In this document: one piece after another, positions 98 to 63,029 of the stretch
Layout: the number at the start of each line of letters is the position of its first letter
Position numbering within the stretch: the stretch's first letter is position 1
DNA from: Bacteroidales bacterium
Lineage (GTDB): Bacteria > Bacteroidota > Bacteroidia > Bacteroidales > UBA932
DNA length: 64,000 nt
Direction: 5' to 3'
Assembly (NCBI GenBank): GCA_024401695.1
Contig: JAKSKN010000001.1
Location: 310,001-374,000 of the forward strand
The notes under the pieces: generated by a model
What the model saw: the letters and a program-made list of their open reading frames with translations, nothing else
What the model was told of the DNA's origin: nothing
Databases searched by the model: none
Translations under genes and position numbers: made by a program

Positions 98-667
98 ATG
101 TCGGGAAAAGTATTGATATTCTCCGCTCCTTCAGGAGCCGGCAAAAGCACGGTGGTGAACCATCTGCTCAGCTTGTATCCGGAGTTCGAGTTCTCTGTTT
201 CAGCCACTTCCAGAGCCCCTCGCGGCGAAGAAAAAGATGGCGTGGAATACTATTTCATCGATGCCGCGCGCTTTCGCGAACTCATAGCGGCTGACGCATT
301 CGTCGAATACGAAGAAGTCTACGAGGACCGTTTCTACGGTACCCTGAAGTCCGAGGTCGAGCGCATCTGGGCCAAAGGCCACGTCATTCTCTTCGACGTC
401 GATGTCAAGGGAGGCGTAAACCTCAAGAAATACTTCGGTGAGTCGGCATTCTCAATGCTTATACTCCCACCATCCTTTGAAGTCCTTGAGCAGCGTCTCC
501 GCAGTCGCGGGACCGACTCCGAAGAAGCAATAAAGGAAAGGCTCGCCAAGGCGGAATGGGAGATAGGATTCGCCAGAGGCAAATTCGATTATGAACTTGT
601 CAACGACAAGCTTGAAGACACTTTCGCCGAATCAGAACGCGTGGTCGGCAATTTCCTGGACAAATAA
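98..667 (+). CDS. gmk: Guanylate kinase
   Basis: Phosphorylates GMP to GDP with ATP in the cytosol, an essential step of guanine nucleotide synthesis. The 189 residues match the usual family length. The P-loop APSGAGKST lies at residues 10-18, and the GMP-binding stretch with TSRAPRGEEKDGVEYYF follows at about 37-53. The lid and C-terminal helices look complete. The ATG at 98 follows a -7 promoter element. nadD starts 8 bases after the stop, so the two are probably cotranscribed. A gmk-nadD pair is common in Bacteroidales. The identification is secure. Confidence 0.97.
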   Translation: MSGKVLIFSAPSGAGKSTVVNHLLSLYPEFEFSVSATSRAPRGEEKDGVEYYFIDAARFRELIAADAFVEYEEVYEDRFYGTLKSEVERIWAKGHVILFDVDVKGGVNLKKYFGESAFSMLILPPSFEVLEQRLRSRGTDSEEAIKERLAKAEWEIGFARGKFDYELVNDKLEDTFAESERVVGNFLDK

Positions 668-675
668 CGGCAATT

Positions 676-1314
676 ATGAGAATCGCAGTCTACTCCGGAA
701 GTTTCGATCCGCTCCATATCGGTCATCAGGCCATAATGGAATACCTTACGAACGTCCGCGAGTTCGACTGGGTATATCTGGTGATTTCGCCCCAGAACCC
801 CCTCAAGGGGAAAGAAAAGGCCCTGAATGCCGAAGAAAGGTACCAGGCCGCAATCCGTGCCGTCCGGCGTCATCCCGAGCTGCACGTGTGGGTGGACAAC
901 ATCGAGCTCGAAATGCCCGCACCGCACTATACGATAAAGACACTCGACGCATTGAAGAAGCGCGAGCCCGAGAACGACTTCACACTTGTCATCGGTGCCG
1001 ACAATCTGTACGATATCCACAAATGGCGCGATGCACCGCGCATCCTGAGTGAGTTCGGGGTTGCGGTCTATCCTCGCAGCGGTTACGATCTGGAATATAT
1101 CCGAGGGCAGCTCTACGAAGAATGCCGCCACTTCCCCGCCCCGTACGTAATGGACGCATACTCGCTCCATTCCACTCCCGGCACGGTGGGTCTGGAGGAT
1201 TTTGAAAGCCTCTACAACATCCAGATCATAGACGCACCCATCGTTGACATATCATCGACTGAAATCCGCGAAGCCCAGGCCCGCGGAATCGATATGTCTG
1301 AATTCCTGATGTAA
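676..1314 (+). CDS. nadD: Nicotinate-nucleotide adenylyltransferase
   Basis: Transfers AMP from ATP to nicotinate mononucleotide, giving deamido-NAD in NAD biosynthesis. The nucleotidyltransferase signature GSFDPLHIGH sits at residues 8-17, with the HIGH-type ATP-binding motif. The C-terminal ISSTEIR motif is present near residue 200, so the protein is complete at 212 residues, slightly above the usual 190-200. It follows gmk by 8 bases and shares its promoter. The stop at 1314 is almost contiguous with the end of a convergent gene at 1316, and no terminator hairpin is visible between them. Confidence 0.95.
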   Translation: MRIAVYSGSFDPLHIGHQAIMEYLTNVREFDWVYLVISPQNPLKGKEKALNAEERYQAAIRAVRRHPELHVWVDNIELEMPAPHYTIKTLDALKKREPENDFTLVIGADNLYDIHKWRDAPRILSEFGVAVYPRSGYDLEYIRGQLYEECRHFPAPYVMDAYSLHSTPGTVGLEDFESLYNIQIIDAPIVDISSTEIREAQARGIDMSEFLM

Positions 1315-50319: not shown

Positions 50320-50976
50320 ATGATAGAAGGACTCGATTATAATACCGCCCGTGAAAAGCTTTCAATGCCGGAATACGGACGCAATGTGCTGAAAATGGTG
50401 GAGGAACTGCGCGCCATCGAAGACAGGGACAAACGAAGTGAACAGGCCCGCGCCATCATCAAGGTGATGGAGATACTCAACCCGCAGGTCCATTCCCAGG
50501 AAAATTTCGAGCAGAAGCTCTGGGATCACCTTTTTATGATAGCGGGGTTCGACCTTGACATCGATTCGCCATATCCTTGCCCCGTGGCCGAGGAATTTGC
50601 CACGAAGCCTATGAGCATCCCGATGAAGGACACAAAGATCAAAGCCACCCACTACGGACGCAACATTGAGAAGATCATCAACCTGCTGTGTGACGAGCCG
50701 GATGGCGAAGTGAAGACGGAGATGATACGCTCGCTTGCCATCTATATGCGCCAGCAATACCTCATCTGGAACAAGGACAGCGTGGCTGACGAGACCATTT
50801 TCAATGACATAGAGAAGCTCTCCGATTACCGGCTCAAGGTTCCGGAGGGAATCAATCTCAGCAAGATCGCCGGTGATGCCAACTTCTCCCGTCCGGGAAT
50901 GGGCATCAACGTCGGACAGGCGGCCAGCAAGAACCGCCAGCGTAAGAACAACCGCAAAGGCTTCAAGAAAAAATGA
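50320..50976 (+). CDS. DUF4290 family protein
   Basis: The 218-residue protein begins with IEGLDYNTAREKLSMPEYGRN, the hallmark of the Bacteroidota family DUF4290. It is mainly helical, contains KVMEILNPQVHSQENFEQKLWDHLF, and ends in a Lys/Arg/Asn-rich tail that may bind nucleic acid. Function is unknown. It overlaps ftsK by 4 bases, which is a common neighbourhood, suggesting a link to chromosome segregation or division. Confidence 0.85.
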   Translation: MIEGLDYNTAREKLSMPEYGRNVLKMVEELRAIEDRDKRSEQARAIIKVMEILNPQVHSQENFEQKLWDHLFMIAGFDLDIDSPYPCPVAEEFATKPMSIPMKDTKIKATHYGRNIEKIINLLCDEPDGEVKTEMIRSLAIYMRQQYLIWNKDSVADETIFNDIEKLSDYRLKVPEGINLSKIAGDANFSRPGMGINVGQAASKNRQRKNNRKGFKKK

Positions 50977-53528
50977 AACTCTGGAACTCCTGGGACGAAG
51001 ACGAACGCGCTTCCGCTGTCCGCATAGCCGGACTGGTTGTCGCGGCACTGACCATATTCATTCTCATCGCCACTGTATCATACCTGTTCCACTGGCAGGA
51101 GGATATGAGTATGCCTGAAGTGTACGGGAACGCTGCAGGAAAATTGGGACATCTGACAGGCAGGTTCCTTGTATGCGAGCTCTTCGGGCTCGGCAGCTTC
51201 GCTCTCCTGATCATCCTGACCGCCGTTTCAGTAAGGCTTCTTACCCAGAAGTGGCACGTCTCTCTTATCAAGACCGCCCTCATCGCAATATTCGGAGCAT
51301 TCATCACATCCCTCCTGCTGGCATATCTCAGCAAACTCTTCGGATGGACCGAAATGTTTGCAGGCGGCCTCGGCGGCCGTTGCGGAGCATTTGCTGTGAA
51401 CTGGTCAGACATACAGTTCGGCATCCCCGTTACCGGGATCTTCATTTTCCTTCTCATCCTTGCATTTCTTTTCTTCTCCTCAAAGCCGTTCACCCGCTGG
51501 TTCTCTTCACTCGGGAACCTGACACCGGAACAGAAAGAAGCCAAAGAGGCGGCCAGAATTGCAAAAAAGGAGGCGAAAGCTGAAGCCAGGAGGCTTGCAG
51601 AAGAAGAGAAGCTCCGCAAGAAAGAGGAGAAACAGCGCGCAAGGGAAGACAGGAAGAACGGAAAGAAAACAGACGAAGCCCCGGAGGAGAGCGTCGAGCC
51701 GATGGAGATTTCAGTTGAAGACCCGGGACAGATCGAGGCGGGTCCGGTCATCTCTGATGACATCGATATTGCGGAAGCAGCCGGCGTGGAAGCAGCCGCA
51801 GACGTTGAGGCGTCCGTTCCCGCTGTTGCAGGCAGTGTCGCGGATGACGTCGCAGTGGCCGAAGCCGCTGCAGCCGTTGCAGCCAAAGGCGGTTTCGAGA
51901 TTGTCGAGGATACAGGCCTCGACGCCGAGCCAGAAAAGGAACTTGAGCCTATCAACAACCGTATGGACCCTCCAGAGGGTCTGCCGAAATACAAGTTCCC
52001 TTCCCTCGACCTTCTGGAGAGCCACGCAGGCAACCGGCGCGAAGTATCCAACGAGGAACTTATCAGGAACAACAACAAGATACGTGCAGCCCTGGCCAAC
52101 TATAAGATCCAGATAAATGATGTCAAGGCAATAGTGGGCCCGACAGTCACACTGTACAAGGTATATCCTGCGCCTGGCGTCAAGATCGCCGATATCAAGA
52201 AGCTCCAGGAAGACATCGCCCTTTCCCTCAATGCCAAGGGCGTGCGCGTGGTGACGCTTTCCGACTCCGTCGGCATCGAAGTCGCCAATGATTATTCATC
52301 TATCGTCCCTCTCAAAGCCCTCCTCAACGACGAGGCGTTCCGCGAGAGCAAGGCCGACCTCCCTATAGCCATCGGCTATACCATCACCCAGAAGGTCAAG
52401 GTCTTCGACCTGGCCGACGCCCCTCACCTCCTCGTGGCAGGTGCCACAAAACAGGGAAAGTCCGTCGGACTCAACGTCATTGTTTCCTCCCTTCTCTATG
52501 CCAAGCATCCGTCAGAGCTTCGCTTCGTCTTCATAGATCCGAAGATGGTCGAGTTCTCTTCATACGCCAACCTTCTGAAACATTATCTCGCCGTCCTTCC
52601 GGATGCCGTCTCAGAAGAGGACGAGAAGGCCGCCGCCATCGTCAAGAAACCGAAAGATGCCGAAAAGATACTGCGTTCGCTCTGCACCGAGATGGACGAC
52701 CGCTACGAACTCCTCAGCAAGGCAGGGGTCAACAACCTCAAGAGTTACAACAACAAGTTCAAGGAACGCAGGTTGCGTCCTGACCACGGCCACAGGTTCC
52801 TGCCATACCTTGTAGTGGTAGTCGACGAGTATGCCGACCTCACAATGACCACCGGCGCATCGTCAGACTCACGCGCCGCAGCCCGCAGCATCACCAACTC
52901 GATCATCCGTCTCGCCCAGAAGGGACGCGCTGCCGGCCTGCACGTGATACTTGCTACCCAGCGTCCTTCAGTGGATGTCATATCCGGCATCATCAAGAGC
53001 AACTTCCCTATGCGCATCGCATTCCGCGTCGCATCCAGAATGGACTCTATGACAATCCTCGACAACCCGGGGGCCGAGAAGCTTATCGGCAAGGGCGATA
53101 TGCTCTTCAGCGCCGGCATTGACTCCGAGCGCATCCAGTGCGGCTACATCAGCAGCGAAGAAATAGATAAGATCACTGAATTCATCGGAAGTCAGGAAGG
53201 ATACGGCAGATGCTATAACACGCCATATTATCTGCCGTCACCGGCAGAGCCCGAGGCAGAAGGCGGTGGCAGTGGCAATGGGATGGTCGATATGAGCAAG
53301 CTCGACGACCGCTTTGAAGAAGCTGCCAAAATGGTGGTTCTCAGCCAGCGCGGTTCGACCTCCGACCTCCAGCGCAAGCTCGGTATGGGCTATGCCAAGG
53401 CGGGACGTGTGATGGACCAGCTCGAGTCGGCGGGAATAGTCGGCCCGCAGGAGGGCAGCAAGCCGCGTCAGGTTTTGGTACAGGATTTGAACAGTCTTCA
53501 GGAAATACTTGATGCGTTTATGAAATAG
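50973..53528 (+). CDS. ftsK: DNA translocase FtsK
   Basis: Pumps DNA at the septum so that chromosome dimers are resolved before division. The 851 residues include four N-terminal transmembrane helices within about 1-170, a highly charged Glu/Lys/Arg stretch and an acidic Ala/Val-rich linker to about 330, then the motor: Walker A GATKQGKS near 490 and Walker B VVVDEYADL near 617. A C-terminal gamma winged helix (LSQRGSTSDLQRKLGMGYAKAGRVMDQLE) follows, which reads KOPS. The Walker A has Lys where most family members have Gly, but the GxxxxGKS pattern is intact. Coupled to DUF4290 (4-base overlap) and followed 4 bases later by a LolA-like gene. Confidence 0.95.
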   Translation: MKLWNSWDEDERASAVRIAGLVVAALTIFILIATVSYLFHWQEDMSMPEVYGNAAGKLGHLTGRFLVCELFGLGSFALLIILTAVSVRLLTQKWHVSLIKTALIAIFGAFITSLLLAYLSKLFGWTEMFAGGLGGRCGAFAVNWSDIQFGIPVTGIFIFLLILAFLFFSSKPFTRWFSSLGNLTPEQKEAKEAARIAKKEAKAEARRLAEEEKLRKKEEKQRAREDRKNGKKTDEAPEESVEPMEISVEDPGQIEAGPVISDDIDIAEAAGVEAAADVEASVPAVAGSVADDVAVAEAAAAVAAKGGFEIVEDTGLDAEPEKELEPINNRMDPPEGLPKYKFPSLDLLESHAGNRREVSNEELIRNNNKIRAALANYKIQINDVKAIVGPTVTLYKVYPAPGVKIADIKKLQEDIALSLNAKGVRVVTLSDSVGIEVANDYSSIVPLKALLNDEAFRESKADLPIAIGYTITQKVKVFDLADAPHLLVAGATKQGKSVGLNVIVSSLLYAKHPSELRFVFIDPKMVEFSSYANLLKHYLAVLPDAVSEEDEKAAAIVKKPKDAEKILRSLCTEMDDRYELLSKAGVNNLKSYNNKFKERRLRPDHGHRFLPYLVVVVDEYADLTMTTGASSDSRAAARSITNSIIRLAQKGRAAGLHVILATQRPSVDVISGIIKSNFPMRIAFRVASRMDSMTILDNPGAEKLIGKGDMLFSAGIDSERIQCGYISSEEIDKITEFIGSQEGYGRCYNTPYYLPSPAEPEAEGGGSGNGMVDMSKLDDRFEEAAKMVVLSQRGSTSDLQRKLGMGYAKAGRVMDQLESAGIVGPQEGSKPRQVLVQDLNSLQEILDAFMK

Positions 53529-53532
53529 TGCT

Positions 53533-53973
53533 ATGAAAAGAGTCCTGATCATACTGGCTTCAATGCTTTCCTTCAGTCTGTTTTCTTTCGGTCAGACGGA
53601 GAAGGTCGATGCGCTGCTGCCTCTGCTTGAAAGCAACCGCATTGTACTTGACTACGACTGCATCATAACCGGCGACAACGGAGTCCCCATTACCTACAAG
53701 GGCACGCTCACGGCTCAGGAAGGGTGCTACACCCTGAAAGGCAACGGTGTGGAGATCTATTGCGACGGTGGCACCAGATGGACTGTGGACCCTAAATCAA
53801 AGGAAGTCTACATCGAATATGCCGAAGGGCTCGATGACATTCTCGCCAACAGAAAATATATCACGAAACTCGACATCGGGAACGTGCGGCGTCAGGCTCC
53901 CGCTGAAATGAGCGATTTCTCCTTCAGCACCGACGGCCTCGACTCATCCTGGGTCGTCACCGACCTGCGATGA
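53533..53973 (+). CDS. LolA-like periplasmic lipoprotein carrier
   Basis: A signal peptide (about 1-20) is followed by about 125 residues in the LolA half-barrel pattern: ITYKGTLTAQEGCYTLKGNGVEIYCDGGTRWTVDPKSKEVYIE. It is shorter than E. coli LolA (about 180 mature residues). A lolA homologue after ftsK is a common arrangement in Bacteroidota. It probably carries lipoproteins across the periplasm, though LolB-like or other LolA-fold roles are possible. Confidence 0.75.
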   Translation: MKRVLIILASMLSFSLFSFGQTEKVDALLPLLESNRIVLDYDCIITGDNGVPITYKGTLTAQEGCYTLKGNGVEIYCDGGTRWTVDPKSKEVYIEYAEGLDDILANRKYITKLDIGNVRRQAPAEMSDFSFSTDGLDSSWVVTDLR

Positions 53974-53976
53974 CTC

Positions 53977-56900
53977 CTAGATCAGCACGCAGTGGAGTTT
54001 CGTCGCCTGCCCGTCGCGGCTGACATTCACCTCACGGCACATTCCCTTCAGGATCGTAGCCTGAAGAGCATATTCCTCCGCATCCAGAATATCAGCATCA
54101 ACGCAACCCGGAACGGAGATTTCAACGTCCTTTGTCTTGTTCTTCTCGGAATATGACACCTTCACGGTCGCGCCGGAACCTGTACCCATCATAAGCAGAC
54201 CCTCTTCAACAGTCTGGTTGAAATGATAGATATCCGTGGCAGAAAGATTATATCTCTTGCAGAAGTTCGTGATTCCCGCCATCATCTCGTAGTAATCATA
54301 TTTGCTTGTACGGATATCATAGCGGTATTCACGTATCTGGTTGATGAAATTGCGCGTCTGTTCCTTCTGCGGATTCTCGAAGATCTCCTGCGGGGTCCCC
54401 TCCTCATAGATATAGCCGCCGTTCATAAAGAACACACGGTTGCATACCTCCCTGGCAAAGCTCATCTCGTGGGTGACGACCAGCATCGTTATGCCCTTGC
54501 TGGCAAGGGTCTTCATAACGCCCAGCACTTCACTGACCATCGTAGGGTCAAGTGCGGATGTAGGCTCGTCGAAAAGCAATATCTCCGGCTCCATTGCAAG
54601 CGCCCTGGCTATGGCCACACGCTGCTTCTGGCCTCCTGAAAGCTGCGCGGGAACCGCGTTCCACTTCTCCGCGAGGCCCACAAGTTCAAGCAGTTCCATC
54701 GCCCTGGCCTGCGCTTCCTTGCGGGATTTGCCCAGAAGTTTCATAGGGCAGAATGTGATGTTGTCCATTATGCTCATCCCATTGAACAGATTGAACGACT
54801 GGAACACCATAACCATCTTCCGCCTGAGACTCGGCACGTCAACCCCCGGATCCATAATATTGCTTCCATCTATCTCGATACGGCCTCCGGTAGGCTGTTC
54901 GAGCAGGTTCAGACAGCGGAGGAAGGTGCTTTTTCCGGTACCTGACGGGCCGATTATGCTTATGACCTCTCCTTTTCTGACCTCAGCGTTGACATCCTTC
55001 AGGACGCATACACCATCGTCGTATGTTTTCTTGAGATGTGAGACGCGGATGATGACATCCGAATCCGGTCCGGCAGACGAAGCTTCCGTTTTGGAAGACT
55101 TCCGGCGGCCACAACGTGCAATGCACAAGCCTGCTCCGGAAATGACAAGGAGCGACAGCACGGCGATCAACCATACAGGGAATCCTTCTTCCGGTTTATC
55201 GGCTATTCCATCTCTCATTACCAATGCCACTGTCCTGCCCTCATAGAAGGGGACCTGACGTATTATCTTCTGCCTCTCCTCGGTGACATTGATTGTCGCA
55301 ACGGCAGCATCTGTCCGGCCTGTAATCAGGCTCGGGATTATGCCGCCGAAATCCATATTGACAAATTCCACGGGTCTGCCGATATGGGCGGCAAAACGGC
55401 GCATCAGCTCAATTTCAAATCCGTCGGAGATGCCATTGAGCAACATATTCATAGGAGGTGAGCTCAGCATTGTGGCGACTTTGAGGACGGGACCGCTGGT
55501 GATTTCCGCCACATCCCTGTGTGCTTCCTGCATGTCGCCCCTGAACCATCTGTCACACATATCTTCATATTCGGCAGTCTGCTTGAATTCATCGAAGAAT
55601 TTCTCAAACTGAACCGGAAGATATTCGTCTTCCAGCCGGAAGCAGGCTGCAACCGGCAGCGGAGCCATATCTGTAGAGATCGAATCCAAAACGGGATATT
55701 CCCTCAACGGAGTGATTGCGTTGACGTTGTCCAGATAATAAGCCGCTATGTACCCTGAACGGAGGGCGATGATTCCGTCAACGTCATTGTTGTACGACTT
55801 GACGTTTGCCATTCCATACTTCTTGTGAAGATTTGCTTCGGCAAGCGTGCCAAGGAGCACCCCGACATCTTCCCCTTCCAAATCTTCTTCCCTGCTGATG
55901 ACGGTTTTCCGTTCCTGAGATTTTCTGACCAGGATATATGAACGGCTCGAATAGTACGGTATCTGGATAATCATTTTCTGCCGTTCCTCAGTGACATTGA
56001 TGCTGGATAAGGCAGCATCAACCTTATTGGATATCAGAGCCGGGATCATGGCGCCAAAGTCCATCACCTGGAACTCTACAGGTCTTTTCACGAAGAGGGC
56101 GAACCGGCGCATCAGTTCAATCTCATAACCGTCCAGCACTCCGTTCACCATTGAATTGAAAGGAGGGACCGTGCCCAGCACAGCCACCTTTACAGGTTCA
56201 CCGGATTCTACTGCGGGTATATCCCTGTGCCTTTCCGGATCATTGAAATTCATCCATCGTCCGAGGATATCCCTGTTCTCTCCGGATTCTTCCAGGAGTT
56301 CGATGAAACCCTTGAACTGCTGGGAGAGCTCCCTTTCCTCGAAACTGAAACATACTGCAATCGGAGTGGCCGGAATATCGGCAGGTATGGAATCAAGCTC
56401 CGGGTGGAGCATCAGAGGCTCAAGGATAAACGAATCATCTGTGTAGTACCCGTCGGACTTGCCACGCAGCACTGACTCCACGCCATCGGTGGTTGTGTTG
56501 AATGACATCACGTTGTCCATCCCCCTTCTGCTGTGGATATAATTTTCCTGAGTTGAACCGAGAAGGACCGATACAGGCCTTCCGTCCAGATCTTTTTCAG
56601 TCCTGATTCCGTTTGATGCCCTGTCATCGGATTTGCTGCACGCAGGCAGGACCAGCAACGCCGCAAGGAGCATAATCACAGCCTTTGGGCTGCGTGGTTT
56701 TGACAAAAGCTTCAGCAGAAGTCCTATGAGCCAGGCTATGATGAAATATATGACAGCCACGAGGATCAAAGGCAGGAAAGCCTCGAATGTCCTTGCTCGG
56801 ATGATGTCCGAGGCTTTTGTCATATCCATCACGGCGATGTACCCGACTATGGAAGTGCTTTTCAGAAGGCTGACCACCTCTCCCTGGTACACGGGGATCA

Positions 56901-57369
56901 CATTCCTTACCGCCTGAGGGAGCACTATGTAGAAGAAAGTCTGTGTCTTTGAGAGGCCGAGGGACAACCCGGCCTCGGTCTGTCCCCTGTCTATCCCCTC
57001 TATCGAAGTGCGCAGCATCTCGCTTATGTATGCCGCAGTGTTCATCGCAAAAGTCAGTATGGCCACGAAAATGCCGGAAGCATTGACGGGGGCGAGGATG
57101 ACATAATACATTATCATAAGCATCACCAGGACCGGTGTGCCCCGCATTATGTCAATGTACACGGTTGCGATGCTGCGGAGCCATTTGCGCCTGTTCATCC
57201 TCATCCAGCAGATACCGCCGCCAAGCAGAGTCCCGAGGAGAACCGCAAAGACAGTGATTATCAATGTGGTCTTAAGTCCGTCGACAATATGCATATACCT
57301 GTCTTCCACAATGAAATTGTTGTAGAAAGACTTGGATATCCCGTTCAATATGCTGGTGATATTTCCCAT
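53977..57369 (-). CDS. Single-chain amino-acid ABC importer: permease, binding-protein repeats, ATPase, RsbW-like tail
   Basis: An 1130-residue fusion. Residues 1-225 are a HisM/GlnP-type permease, with the EAA loop [22 protein letters not shown] at 132-153. Residues 230-244 form a hydrophobic stretch ending LPAC, a lipobox-like site. Periplasmic binding-protein (SBP_bac_3) sequence follows as half - full - half: a second-lobe unit at 256-375, a complete unit at 392-615, and a first-lobe unit at 627-717. A transmembrane helix at 731-752 returns to the cytosol. The ATPase (773-1010) has Walker [10 protein letters not shown] (807-815), LSGGQKQR (910-917) and FDEPTSALD (933-941), all intact. Residues 1020-1130 resemble an RsbW/anti-sigma-type HATPase domain. 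It imports a polar or charged amino acid by inference. A monocistronic gene with its own -7 element. Confidence 0.85.
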
Positions 57370-57403: not shown

Positions 57404-60160
57404 TTATATTACGACGACCTCGTCATCCGCGACATACCAGACGGCGCCCCTGGTTTTGAAACCCAGCTGGCGGTAAAGTTTCATATAGGAGCGGACCTGC
57501 CAGATGTACGACTCCCTGCGCTCCGTACCGAATTTATAATCCAGGACAAAGACCTCCGTCCCATTGAAAATGACACGGTCAGGGCGGTGCTCCCGACCAT
57601 CCGTACCGAATATCGTCACTTCATCGCGCACATCTCCGGACGAGAACCATTCAGGATGTGCAAGTATGCGTCCGGTAAGGAACGCGCGGCTTTCAGAATC
57701 AAGGTCGGCCGGCAGGTCTTCCGGCGAGCGGACACCTTCCAGGGCCTTGTGAAGTTCGATTCCGGACAGTCTCGCCGATGCTGCAGGGCCAGCGACCCCG
57801 TCAACGCCGAAATAATCAGCCGCGTCTTCCGACGGAGACAGGCGGCCGGCAAGAGGATATGAAGGGTATGTCGCCGGAAAGTCATCGGCCCTGCGCTTCT
57901 CCTCCCGTTTCATCCTGCTGAAATCATACGGTTCACCATAGAACTGATTCTCAAGCCCACCGCAGAAGGCATACAGAATATCCGTGAACCTGCCATACTC
58001 CTCCTTCCCCTTCTTCAAGGCTTCCCGGAACGTCTTTGAAGGATTCTTCGAGATCACGTGGAGGCATTTCCCGGCACGGGTCAGTGCGACGTAGAATACA
58101 TTGATATTGTCAACCTTCTGCAGGAAAGCCTCACGTTCAAGGTCCTTTGCGAACATTGTCTTCCGGCTGGCATCGGCTGTCAGGGTCACCGGATAATTGC
58201 CGGTGACGACATCGCCAAGAGGGGAACCCGCCGCGTCGAGGTGGCACCATTCGGTTGTTGTCCTGAAGAATTCCACCGTGTCGGCAAACGGGAATATGAC
58301 ATACGGGAACTCCAGCCCCTTCGACTTGTGGATCGTCATTATCCTGATGGAGTCGGAGTCCTCAGGAGAACCTATGTACGGATCCGCGTCGGCCCAATGC
58401 TTCAGGAAAGCGCGGAGGTTGTTCCCGTTCACGTCCACCCATTCTCTCAAGCCGTCCATAAATGCCTGTATGAACAGGGTTTCACCTTCGAAGGTGGAAG
58501 GGTCATTGTCCCGCAGGGAGCGCAGGAGATTCTCGCACAGATCCACCAGGGAATGGTAGCGGTCAGGGAATTCCACCCCAAGCTGACGGGCCAGATAACT
58601 GCCGACGGTGTTGTCGGGGGTTTCGATGGAACTGAGCAAAGACACCAGACGCCGCACGACAACGGAAGACTTCACTGCAAGCGAATCATCGGAAATCACC
58701 GGATACCCACGTCCGATGAGTTCTTCCGCGATATCGGAGCCGCAGGAATTCCTGCGGACCAGGACAGCGATGTCACTCCAGCGCGCTCCGGAGCTGCGGG
58801 CATACCTGACAGACTCGATGACAGCATCCATCTGATCGTCCGTAAAAGTAACCTGCACGCTGCCCTTCTGCTCCTCATCGGACATCTTTTCCTGCTTCAC
58901 ATCGGCATAGATATCCTTTGCTCCGATCACTTCAGCGGCCTTAGCGAAGAATCTGTTGTTGAAGTCCACCACCGTCTGCGAACTGCGCCAGTTGCAGTCC
59001 ATCGGCTCCGACTCCACGTTCGGGAAGGCTTCTTCGACCTCGTGTCCCAGAAGCTCCCAGTCTGAATTGCGCCAGCGGTAGATGCTCTGCTTGACATCGC
59101 CGACGATGAGGCTGCCCGCCCCACCGGCGGAAGAGTTCGCCTCACTCTCGCGCAGAAGCGGCAGGAAATTGTCCCACTGTATACGGGATGTATCCTGGAA
59201 TTCGTCCAGAAGGAAGTGTTCGAAACGAACGCCGAGCTTTTCATAGACAAACGGAGCATCAGAGCCGTCGATGATGTCGCGAAGTATCGTATTGGAGTCA
59301 TCCAGCGGCATCACGTTCTTCTCCTTCAGCAATGCATCGAACTCCTTGTAGAATTCGCCTGCGAGGCCAAGTGAGAACACAAGCCTGTCTATGCAGTATG
59401 CCGTGCAGTAATGATAATACGGCTTCTCGAAGAGCTGTGCAAGTGCCGGGTCGTTCTTCTTTGCCGTCTTGGTCGGTTCCTTGATCTTCCCGTCATCCGC
59501 GGCGGTTATGCCGAATGCCCCGGCCTTCCTGCCGAAGTCCGCAATAACGGCACGGCAAGCCTTGCGTATCTCGTCGAGACGCTCCTTCGAGAACTCTTCA
59601 GCATCCTTCAAGCCATATTTTTCCTGCAGCTGTCTGTGGCTCTCACTCTTCAGAAGCCTGCCTATCTCCTTCAGGCCATCATCAATGACGAACTTCTGGC
59701 CTTGCTCTATCCTGTCCATGGCGCTGCGGCGCAGCCAGTCGAGAAGGTCCTTCTTCTCCAGGGTCAGGCCGTCGAGGATGCGGTCCATGGATTCCTGGAT
59801 GAGTGAATCGCGGTCAAGCTCTATCTGGTATGAAACGAACTGGCCTATCTCGCGGGAGAAGGCTTTGAGCGCCTGCTGGAAGAATTTATCGATTGTGCTG
59901 ACGGCAAAGGCGCTGTAGTCGTGGAGGATGTTCACGAGAGCCGTCTTCGCACGTTCTCCACGCACCCCGCCTTTCTTTGCCTCATCCTTGAGGTCGCGGA
60001 GGATTCGAGCCTTCATCTCGGCCGTAGCCTTGTTCGTGAAAGTGACCGCAAGTATGTGGCGGTACGCGTACGGATCCCCTGATTCCAGGAGCATATCGAT
60101 GTATGTGTGCGAGAGTGCGTAAGTCTTGCCCGAGCCCGCAGATGCCTTGAGTACTTTCAT
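57404..60160 (-). CDS. addA: AddA-type UvrD helicase/RecB-family nuclease
   Basis: The helicase-nuclease subunit that resects double-strand breaks. The 918-residue protein has Walker A ASAGSGKT at 6-13, the UvrD motif [24 protein letters not shown], and the later helicase motifs [16 protein letters not shown] and [10 protein letters not shown]-terminal PD-(D/E)XK nuclease follows, with [18 protein letters not shown] near residue 875. It is shorter than Bacillus AddA (about 1230), as in other Bacteroidales. Its start overlaps the addB stop by 4 bases (ATGA). No recD is present. Confidence 0.9.
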
Positions 60161-63018
60161 CGTCCGCAGATCATTTTGAAGTCACAGTATTCGCAGGCCC
60201 TGGCATCCCCGGTACGCCTCCACGGCACGCCCGGATCGGCAAGTTCCTTCAGTTTCTCCTCGAGAGCCACATTCATAAGCTCCGTGAATTCCGGTACCAG
60301 GCACACCTCTTCGACCTCTTTCACGAAAAGCCTGGAGGTCTGGTAGATGGAATTGACTATGCCCTTCCCGGCGAACCTGCGGTCCTTCGCGACGAACCTG
60401 TCGTAGAGGTAGAGCTGCAGGGCGATCTTCGGACGCCCCTGTTCCTTTTCTCCGAAAAGTTTTTCCACTACCTGCTGTGCGTTGGCGGCGGTGATGTTGA
60501 AATCCTCATCCGTAACCCTGCCTGTCTTGTAATCGACGATGCGGACCTGGTCAGGAGTGAAGCTGTCGAGGCGGTCGAGGTAGCCGACGAACCTGAAGCC
60601 CCCGATCTCATCGTGCTTTGATTCCTCAAGCAGATGGATGTGGAATCTGTCAACTCCATACCTGTCCATCAGCTGCCTGTCGCGCTGAAGGACCTTATTG
60701 ACGTATTCGCAGACAACCTCCTGAAAAAGTATGTTGCGCCCTTCGATGTCGAAGGTCTTCAGTGTCTCACGGATCTGGCCCGCAACCGTATCGCGTATCG
60801 GCGTTCCATCCTTGAGGAGCGAGTCAAGGTATGATGCGGTGATATCTCCCTTCCCTTCGTAGAGCGCCTTCATCGAATTGTGGAACACCGTTCCCAGCGC
60901 TCCTGCATCCAATGATTCCGAAACCTCGTCGTCTTTTTTCAGTCCTTCTACCGATCCGTAGTAGAACTTTGCCGGGCAGCTCAGGTAGTTCTGCATCGAC
61001 GTGGCGGAAAGGTGTCCCTCCGCGCGGAGCCTGTCGATCTGCTCCCGTGTCTTCGGGATGCTCTCGTCGAGGCTGCCCCTTCCGATAGGCGACTTTACGA
61101 CAAAGCGGCGGACCGGAAGGCCGAAGTGCAGCTCAAGCTGCTTGATGTATCTGCTCTCCTCGCCTCCTCGAAGCCCCTCGGCACGCGAGTCGAAAAGCAT
61201 CCATACCTTGCCGGCACGCTGGATCAGACGATAGAAATAGTACGCCCACACGGCATCCTGATATTCGTAGGTCGGCAGGCCGAAACCCTTCCGGAGCTCC
61301 GGCGGGATGAATGACGAACTGACGCTGCGCCGCGGGAACATTCCTTCATTGCAGCTCAGCAGGATGACGTTGTCGAAGTCAAGGGCGCGGGTCTCCAGAG
61401 GGCCCATTATCTGCAGGCCCTTGAGCGGCTCGCCCTGGAACGGGACGGATGTGCCGCCGACAAGTTGGGAGAGAAGCCGGAAATATGTCGCCGGCAGCAT
61501 AGGCAGCCGGATCTTGCGAAGATGCCCGACAGTCTGGTGATAGACGCGCGCGAAGTCAAGTTCCACAGCCATATCGGCCACATCCTTGAGTCTGGGGCCT
61601 ATGCAGGTTACGATATCCTGCTGATAGCATTCGATTGCCTGAATGGCCTCAGGAGAATTGCCGGAGGGATCGGTCACGGCTGGCCGGAAGATTGCCTCAA
61701 GCACGGGGTCTCCCGCAAGCTCGTCCTGCGGGATGTAGTACTTGACACCTTTCTTGATGGCCCTGACAGTTTCACGGCCGGAGTCCGACAGTACAGACTT
61801 GAAAACGGAGTTGGAGAAAATGGCCCAGACCTGCTTGTGGTAGAAATACCACTCGCCATCTTTCTGCCGAAGGTGCATCTGCAGGGCGGCCACATCGTTC
61901 ATCAGGCACCAGAACTCACTTTCACCCATAGGGTAGCCCATCGTGACGTTAAGGTCGGTGACAGCCCCCGGTATGGAGTTGAGCACAGGGAGCAGCAGGC
62001 CTTCGTCGGGCAGGACGATCGCCGTCTCCATCCCCGGTGTGCCGCCCAGACGGGCCAGGATGTCCGGGAGCTGCTTGGCCATCCCTATGCTGCTCGGTAC
62101 GCTGAGGACATTGATCTCAGGGGTTGCGCAGCCCTCGGGATCGGGCTCGAACGCCTGAGGGAAGCGCACGGCGTTGTCGGCCATGAAAAAGGATGACTTG
62201 TTGGCGGGGTCCTTGATCATTGCGGTGCGATAGTCCCAGCAGAACTGGGCGATACCGGCATCACGCATTTTCCCCATCAGTTTCTTTTCGCACTCGGAAA
62301 GTGCATTCAGACCGACGAACACGAAGGATGAACAGTGCGGCAGATGTCCGGCAAGGACATCGACCACGGATTCGGAATCCAGACGGTCGGCTATCTCGCG
62401 GTACACCTTCCCTTCGTAGCTCATATGCTTTTCGGTAAGCGCAGCGTTGAAGTTGGCGTAGAGCTTGAACAGGATGTCCCAGATCTGCAGGAACTTGACC
62501 TTGTAGTTCTTGTCATCCCCGCTTTTCAGATCGACCGTGAGGGCCGAATCCCTGTCGCGGAAATGGTTCAGAAAACGCTCTATCGCATCAATCTGGCCCT
62601 GGGAGAGATAGGAATAGGTATCCTGTATGCTCTTGAAGTCCGCCACATTGGCAAAAAGGCCCTCCGCCCTGACCAGATACTTGTCCACGTCATCAAAGTC
62701 AGCGAGGAGCACATCGCCCCAGAAGATGAAGTCGTCGAGCGGTTCGGGCTTAGGCACAAGCTGCTTGTACTGGTCGAACAGTTCGAGCAGCAGCTGCACG
62801 CGGTCGGTCGGTTCCTCCGCAGTCAGGCGGTAGAAGAAATCGTTCATTGTGAACATAGCCGGCGCGACGACCGGTTTCGAGCCGTCCGCCGCCACGCATT
62901 CACCCAGCCATTTCTTGAAGAATGACCTTGCACGGCGGTTCGGGAAGATGAAGCATACGCTCTCGATGCTCCCCCGGGAGTAATAGTGTCTTGCTACCTG
63001 TTGCAGAAAAGGAGTCAT
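60157..63018 (-). CDS. addB: AddB-type PD-(D/E)XK nuclease with Fe-S cysteines
   Basis: Partner of addA in the double-strand-break resection complex. The 953-residue protein starts FLQQVARHYYSRG and contains an inactive-helicase-like N-terminal region (SVCFIFPNRRARSFFKKWL in place of Walker A). A C-terminal RecB-type nuclease carries VRIVDYKTGRV. Cys in the stretch YLSCPAKFYYG and the terminal cluster CEYCDFKMIC give the four-cysteine pattern of the AddB iron-sulphur staple. The ATG at 63018 is chosen over an in-frame TTG at 63024 because a -7 element covers 63022-63029. Confidence 0.88.
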   Translation of the reverse strand: MTPFLQQVARHYYSRGSIESVCFIFPNRRARSFFKKWLGECVAADGSKPVVAPAMFTMNDFFYRLTAEEPTDRVQLLLELFDQYKQLVPKPEPLDDFIFWGDVLLADFDDVDKYLVRAEGLFANVADFKSIQDTYSYLSQGQIDAIERFLNHFRDRDSALTVDLKSGDDKNYKVKFLQIWDILFKLYANFNAALTEKHMSYEGKVYREIADRLDSESVVDVLAGHLPHCSSFVFVGLNALSECEKKLMGKMRDAGIAQFCWDYRTAMIKDPANKSSFFMADNAVRFPQAFEPDPEGCATPEINVLSVPSSIGMAKQLPDILARLGGTPGMETAIVLPDEGLLLPVLNSIPGAVTDLNVTMGYPMGESEFWCLMNDVAALQMHLRQKDGEWYFYHKQVWAIFSNSVFKSVLSDSGRETVRAIKKGVKYYIPQDELAGDPVLEAIFRPAVTDPSGNSPEAIQAIECYQQDIVTCIGPRLKDVADMAVELDFARVYHQTVGHLRKIRLPMLPATYFRLLSQLVGGTSVPFQGEPLKGLQIMGPLETRALDFDNVILLSCNEGMFPRRSVSSSFIPPELRKGFGLPTYEYQDAVWAYYFYRLIQRAGKVWMLFDSRAEGLRGGEESRYIKQLELHFGLPVRRFVVKSPIGRGSLDESIPKTREQIDRLRAEGHLSATSMQNYLSCPAKFYYGSVEGLKKDDEVSESLDAGALGTVFHNSMKALYEGKGDITASYLDSLLKDGTPIRDTVAGQIRETLKTFDIEGRNILFQEVVCEYVNKVLQRDRQLMDRYGVDRFHIHLLEESKHDEIGGFRFVGYLDRLDSFTPDQVRIVDYKTGRVTDEDFNITAANAQQVVEKLFGEKEQGRPKIALQLYLYDRFVAKDRRFAGKGIVNSIYQTSRLFVKEVEEVCLVPEFTELMNVALEEKLKELADPGVPWRRTGDARACEYCDFKMICGR

Positions 63019-63021
63019 ATA

Positions 63022-63029
63022 CAAATATA
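63022..63029 (-). promoter_or_regulatory. -7 element of addB-addA
   Basis: The minus strand reads TATATTTG, just 3 bases before the addB ATG at 63018. Transcription should begin at or next to the start codon. Confidence 0.6.

Follow-up and report, generated by a model that had tools for sequence, protein, structure and literature searches.

The 64,000-nucleotide stretch of Bacteroidales DNA analysed here (the window) encodes, on its minus strand, a protein that we read, at a probability of roughly 0.8, as a self-contained amino-acid ABC importer with two tandem circularly permuted binding proteins (SBPs), each formed from adjacent halves of the chain. By its sequence matches, the protein is an importer of the polar amino acid type. 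Its relatives carry one to five copies of the same permuted module, arranged around a permease and, in many proteins, an ATPase in the same chain.

One reading frame for permease, binding modules and ATPase

The reading frame at positions 53977-57369 (minus strand) starts with ATG, encodes 1130 amino acids, ends in a stop codon and has zero internal stops. Measured from stop to stop, as are all frame lengths of relatives given below, it spans 1143 residues, and the frame of its relative G183 spans 1141. Pfam domains of all three functional parts lie within it: BPD_transp_1 at residues 43-222 (6.3e-20, 72.1 bits against a cut-off of 26.4), SBP_bac_3 with its best stretch at residues 393-610 (2.8e-42) and ABC_tran at residues 790-938 (5.2e-36). 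An earlier note, made from the DNA letters alone, had placed permease, binding-protein repeats and ATPase in one 1130-residue chain, and the open frame and its domains bear this out. As judged from sequence, the gene order is probably permease, anchor helix, permuted SBP 1, permuted SBP 2, transmembrane helix, ATPase and C-terminal domain (Table 1).

Table 1. Predicted features of the importer gene, with residues of the 1130-residue protein and positions in the window
Feature	Residues	Positions	Strand	Basis
Amino-acid-type permease domain	~11-229	56683..57339	-	Pfam BPD_transp_1 43-222; profile match 11-229
Hydrophobic segment with LPAC at its end, probably anchor helix	227-245	56635..56691	-	Hydropathy scan, motif position
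Circularly permuted SBP 1 (probable)	~252-487	55909..56616	-	HMM half-domains; order as in the single module of 58 all-in-one relatives
SBP 1, lobe 2 and C-terminal part of lobe 1	252-387		-	HMM half-domains
SBP 1, N-terminal part of lobe 1	389-487		-	HMM half-domains
Intra-module linker [10 protein letters not shown]	381-390	56200..56229	-	Position; similar linkers in G183 and close single-module relatives
Circularly permuted SBP 2 (probable)	~488-721	55207..55908	-	HMM half-domains
SBP 2, lobe-2 half	to 623		-	HMM half-domains
SBP 2, lobe-1 half	626-721		-	HMM half-domains
Intra-module linker [10 protein letters not shown]	617-626	55492..55521	-	Position; linker comparison with relatives
Transmembrane helix, would bring the chain back to the cytoplasm	732-750	55120..55176	-	Hydropathy scan
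ABC ATPase, motifs [14 protein letters not shown] and LLFDEP	770-1012	54334..55062	-	Pfam ABC_tran; motif positions
C-terminal domain, perhaps a diverged HATPase_c_2 (GHKL fold) relative	1013-1130	53980..54333	-	9 of 20 chosen family members match

The binding region is repetitive. Aligned with each other, the two lobe-2 halves (36% identical) reach a score of 225, whereas 300 shuffles average 27.0 (z 43.8); for the two lobe-1 halves (54% identical), the score is 276 and the mean of 300 shuffles is 25.8 (z 53.6). The resemblance of the outer halves to the matching parts of the middle unit, pointed out earlier, is thereby upheld, and the motifs cited for it are present.

Spread and architectures of the family

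Within the genus, 102 of 300 genomes (the window's own included) matched the permease-SBP part at 1e-20, some of them by the permease only. For the order and for a draw of phylum genomes, the search profile was built from permuted modules, which biases both searches towards them. At 1e-15, this profile matched 35 of 393 genomes of the order, 22 with full-length modules (from 14 families) and 13 with partial or weak ones; at 1e-25, it matched 43 of 395 genomes of the phylum draw, mostly from family f136. A further search used a permease profile, which is neutral on SBP order and was taken from the importer's own branch. Permuted modules were present in 79 of the 80 loci picked in this way (the best 80 of at least 583, from named genomes), and the 80th, L113, is cut by a contig end. 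Permease, module(s) and ATPase matched in one frame in 44 of these best 80 of at least 583 loci, the ATPase of L133 being split over two. Among the same best 80 of at least 583 loci, the records named outside Bacteroidota included Candidatus Formimonas warabiya (a complete genome), Sporomusa, Azonexus, Nitrotoga and an Aminicenantes MAG, and an Ignavibacteriaceae MAG was also among the permease-chosen records.

Across all fetched loci, 182 proteins carry both halves. These are open frames, some cut by locus ends, from which duplicates were dropped only if residues 101-260 were identical, and they form no neutral census because several of the searches used the permuted profile. The ordinary order of lobe-1 N-terminal part, lobe 2 and lobe-1 C-terminal part is reversed in 175 of the 182, which open with a lobe-2 half (D2) and alternate it with the N-terminal part of lobe 1 (D1N) through one to five modules; within the window chain, the ordinary order is shown by the middle stretch alone. 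The remaining seven comprise six ordinary SBPs, which have the D1N-D2 order and low lobe-2 scores and serve as controls, and L150, whose frame is cut by a contig start.

By architecture, the 175 proteins divide into permease-module-ATPase, the single-module all-in-one form (58), module-permease (44), modules alone (26), two-module-permease (24), three-module-permease (12), permease-module (5) and permease-two-module-ATPase (2, the window protein and G183). Four further forms occur once each: a three-module all-in-one protein (L099, a 1393-residue frame from a Candidatus Equicola faecalis MAG), four modules ahead of one permease (L166, 1245 residues), five modules ahead of one permease (L149, 1509 residues) and module-ATPase. 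The domain order of the window protein was found a second time, in G183, when other genomes were searched. Among the 26 module-only frames, 24 are 5'-complete, and 20 of these 24 have a lipobox-like motif.

Several loci have features of their own. In L115, L141 and L145, permease-module and ATPase occupy separate frames, possibly as steps before or after an all-in-one fusion. The permease-first frame of L013 (in G023) has only 460 residues, and its lobe-2 half lacks its last 32 or so residues; the gene is possibly decaying. On contig C1 of G765, a similar module set occurs twice, at about 977706-982158 and 1183470-1187922, some 206 kb apart; two module pairs score identically and the third slightly differently, which suggests a recent duplication.

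The repeating module as a circularly permuted SBP

An ordinary amino-acid SBP begins with the N-terminal part of lobe 1. In the relatives, the repeating module is, from its profile matches, lobe 2 followed by the C-terminal and then the N-terminal part of lobe 1, which makes it a circularly permuted SBP. Thirty-two permuted modules align over their full length with an invariant Arg in the lobe-1 TEER region, and Pfam SBP_bac_3 matched 32 of the 32 members of alignment A1. For a single module of the relative G035, AlphaFold2 predicted a whole SBP domain from 32 aligned rows (pLDDT 94.6, pTM 0.88). In this model, the permuted order alone forms the whole SBP fold from one module.

Comparison with structures showed that some ordinary SBPs likewise align over more than one lobe. 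Against the module profile, 4zv1 matched in two separate stretches in D1N-D2 order. Two other structures, 6h30 and 4q0c, cover the profile only across tandem domains; we take 4q0c to be BvgS, with its tandem domains. The matches listed (60 of 487 PDB matches) included no solved structure of a permuted module.

The window's own genome (G000) contains a second system on contig C18 (L002-L004), in which two module-permease genes are followed by an ATPase gene. In each module-permease gene, a lipoprotein-like signal is encoded together with one lobe-2 half, then one lobe-1 half, and a permease. Two different module-permease genes served by one ATPase gene suggest a heterodimeric permease.

Pairing of the halves in the two-module chain

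Family-level sequence evidence indicates that adjacent halves probably pair in the window chain. In the 58 single-module all-in-one proteins, no alternative pairing is possible within the chain. For multi-module proteins, we took 59 junctions, identified the single-module protein nearest to one half, and compared its other half with the preceding and the following candidates. When anchored on lobe 1, the preceding lobe-2 half was closer at 47 of 59 junctions and the following one at 12; with a margin of 0.05, the counts became 42 and 1, with 16 ties. When anchored on lobe 2, the module's own partner was closer in 44 cases and the other in 15, or 41 against 7 with 11 ties once the margin was applied (n=59). 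By this comparison, lobe-2/lobe-1 blocks are the units of module evolution, a result on descent that does not directly show which halves pair in folding. In addition, the linkers inside both modules of the window protein and of G183 read HRDI or HRDV, and an H-x-(D/E)-(I/V) variant occupies the intra-module linker in six of seven close single-module relatives (L009, L041, L043, L044, L098 and L116; not L042).

The length of the linkers was also considered as proof of pairing and was rejected. Linkers inside modules vary little (sd 0.77, 100 cases) compared with those between modules (sd 4.44, 59 cases), but this is not decisive because the profiles are cut inside that linker and ordinary SBP hinges (n=6, -7 to +6) vary as much as the between-module junctions. 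Adding the L150 junction to the hinge controls (n=7) left the conclusion on spread the same.

The earlier note had divided the binding region half-full-half, with the outer halves pairing into a second, circularly permuted SBP. Under this alternative, residues 389-623 would be an ordinary SBP, and residues 252-387 and 626-721 would join around it. Over its full length, the middle stretch is indeed collinear with ordinary SBPs for amino acids, 4zv1 (E 2.9e-25) among them; its best solved matches include the ancestral AncQR and arginine-, histidine- and glutamine-binding proteins. Its internal junction has about the length of an ordinary hinge, and in the module comparison the halves of the window protein and of G183 themselves gave ties, favouring neither pairing. 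However, single-module relatives show neighbouring halves making a domain, modules travel as lobe-2/lobe-1 blocks family-wide, and the linkers, which would be spacers in this arrangement, retain a motif resembling the one that close single-module relatives have inside the domain. We thus regard the alternative as unlikely and the half-full-half division as probably the wrong cut. That circular permutation is involved was correctly seen; the pairing of the outer halves is the part that probably does not hold, since adjacent halves form the module in relatives. The idea of a unique half-full-half protein was dropped in view of the serial modules found across relatives.

Considerably less probable is that one module is non-functional, or that the two-module chain folds in either register. 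Module number does differ among close relatives, the single-module G035 grouping with two-module proteins, and the junction fits both registers. Against this, Arg463, Arg699, Asp311 and Asp547 are all retained, and the lobe-2 halves hold their identity between the window protein and G183. That separate genes were joined into this frame by the assembly or by annotation is very hard to credit: the window genome is a draft of 71 contigs and the all-in-one relatives are largely MAGs, but G183 has the same domain order without interruption in a single frame (57% identity across query residues 3-758), L099 has the three-module form in one frame, and the complete genome NZ_CP017634.1 (L144) has the two-module form with its permease, the ATPase being separate.

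History of the two-module chain

Trees were made from rows picked for an ATPase identity of at least 64%. In the permease and ATPase tree (21 rows), the window protein, G183 and the single-module G035 fall together (86/79), with G183 nearer to G035 (98/96). The module tree (29 rows) makes sisters of the first modules of the window protein and G183 (96/88), leaves their second modules without firm placement, and puts the G035 module with neither window module. The lobe-2 halves of the window protein and G183 are 47% (D2a-D2a) and 45% (D2b-D2b) identical, against 36% and 34% crosswise. The second lobe-1 half of the window protein (D1b), by contrast, shares 59% identity with D1a of G183 and 51% with D1b of G183, which counts against our reading. 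The module may have been duplicated before the window protein, G183 and G035 split and then lost in G035, an order of events that these trees do not place firmly.

ATPase and C-terminal domain

The best PDB matches of the ATPase are to ArtP (7.7e-84 and 8.8e-84). Among NCBIfam models, EhuA scored 282.3 bits (equivalog cut-off 345.4) and GlnQ 274.6 bits (cut-off 379), and we give the ATPase no equivalog name because both scores lie below the cut-offs. From these matches, it is an ATPase of the ArtP/GlnQ/HisP type.

On 104 ATPases of the importer's branch, the ATPase is followed by a C-terminal extension of 110-139 residues. Residues 1013-1130 of the window protein had no Pfam match, and no PDB sequence match below E 0.07 was obtained for the C-terminal domain. 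We then chose the window protein and 19 of 34 C-terminal parts listed from the 104 (alignment A5), omitting 15, some of them strongly diverged. HATPase_c_2 matched 9 of these 20 members at E up to 0.1 (best 1.5e-6), which is no family rate because 15 of the 34 were left out, strongly diverged ones among them; the first member scored 17.4 bits against a cut-off of 27.4. The matches suggest that a diverged GHKL-type domain may be present on the ATPases of this branch, where it perhaps has a regulatory role. HATPase_c_2, with its GHKL fold, is an unexpected partner for an amino-acid importer ATPase.

Ligand residues, topology and a proposed mechanism

In the window protein, Arg463 and Arg699 lie in TEER motifs, and Asp311 and Asp547 lie in the lobe-2 halves. 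Across 234 modules, the lobe-1 Arg is present in 232, with gaps in the other two, and the lobe-2 position is D in 121 and E in 52. Presumably, as in known SBPs, the Arg and Asp positions bind the carboxylate and the amino group of the ligand, from which we infer an alpha-amino acid ligand for both window SBPs. Two ligand sites in one chain, as proposed earlier, are therefore likely, and their diverged lobe 2 suggests two ligands or two affinities.

A hydropathy scan found hydrophobic segments after the permease (227-245) and before the ATPase (732-750); therefore, both modules would lie on the outer side of the inner membrane and the ATPase on its cytoplasmic side. The segment at 227-245 is read as an anchor rather than a lipoprotein signal because the lipobox pattern used rejects its LPAC and, of the 58 single-module all-in-one relatives, only 6 contain that pattern. 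Its probable role, by parallel with the OpuA signal anchor of Lactococcus lactis, is to lead the chain out of the cytoplasm.

We then propose a model for the importer. Each chain would carry one permease domain, two periplasmic permuted SBPs in tandem and one ATPase. The chain of each SBP would run through lobe 2, the C-terminal part of lobe 1, the linker and the N-terminal part of lobe 1, so that both ends of the SBP would lie near the hinge. Since each chain has one permease and one ATPase, a transporter of two chains with four binding domains would be implied, GlnPQ being analogous. An alpha-amino acid would be trapped by closure of each SBP, with the conserved lobe-1 Arg and the lobe-2 Asp holding it, and both SBPs would pass it to the shared permease.

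It is tempting to go one step further, although what follows is speculation that we think more likely wrong than right by a wide measure. A branch found in several phyla would have rebuilt its SBP by permutation so that both ends sit at the hinge. With the permease attached at the lobe-2 end and the ATPase at the lobe-1 end, as in the all-in-one form, a closing trap could pull on the two sides alike, which would link ligand binding to ATP hydrolysis by mechanical means. The number of modules in an array, from one to five, would govern capacity or the range of ligands, and chains with several modules may fold in either register.

Comparison with known systems

The nearest parallels are each partial. 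GlnPQ of L. lactis has tandem SBD1-SBD2 domains linked to its permease and works as a homodimer with several binding domains per transporter, according to PMC8025302. Like the window protein, GlnPQ thus joins two tandem amino-acid SBPs to an amino-acid permease in one chain. Its SBDs differ in having the ordinary order (6h30 matches D1N-D2), and GlnQ is a separate subunit; in the window protein, the SBPs, probably permuted, come after the permease and share their chain with the ATPase. The L. lactis OpuA chain runs from permease through signal anchor to binding domain, and OpuAC is known as a permuted SBP and OpuA as a permease-SBP fusion (PMC2861598). OpuA and OpuAC differ from our system in belonging to the betaine family and in having a separate ATPase subunit and one binding domain per chain. 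TpMglB-2 of Treponema pallidum is a natural circularly permuted SBP that keeps ligand binding and probably serves an ABC importer (PMC4990184). It resembles the proposed window modules in its natural permutation and differs in being a type I sugar-binding protein of another fold class and permutation and a single lipoprotein.

Among SBP_bac_3 amino-acid SBPs (AncQR 4zv1, TmArgBP, GlnBP), both halves match by sequence, with the order of the halves reversed. A literature search of open-licence papers found no report of permuted SBP_bac_3 modules, of arrays of them, or of an amino-acid importer that unites permease, SBP and ATPase in a single polypeptide. Permuted SBPs, tandem SBP-permeases and permease-SBP fusions are known singly, and their combination was not found in the open-licence papers searched.

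With these proteins, one of the best-studied protein families gains a permuted branch. Members with one to five modules are natural experiments on why a binding domain is permuted and repeated. The all-in-one form would fix the ratio of permease, binding domain and ATPase, which would be useful for structural and single-molecule work. Domain annotation can misread chains of permuted modules as incomplete halves.

Neighbouring genes

The flanking intervals of the importer gene are 57404-63024 and 50973-53973. Its neighbours there include a UvrD-type helicase gene and a PD-(D/E)XK nuclease gene, which are AddAB-like, and it is convergent to an FtsK gene and to a gene of 146 amino acids that has no Pfam match.
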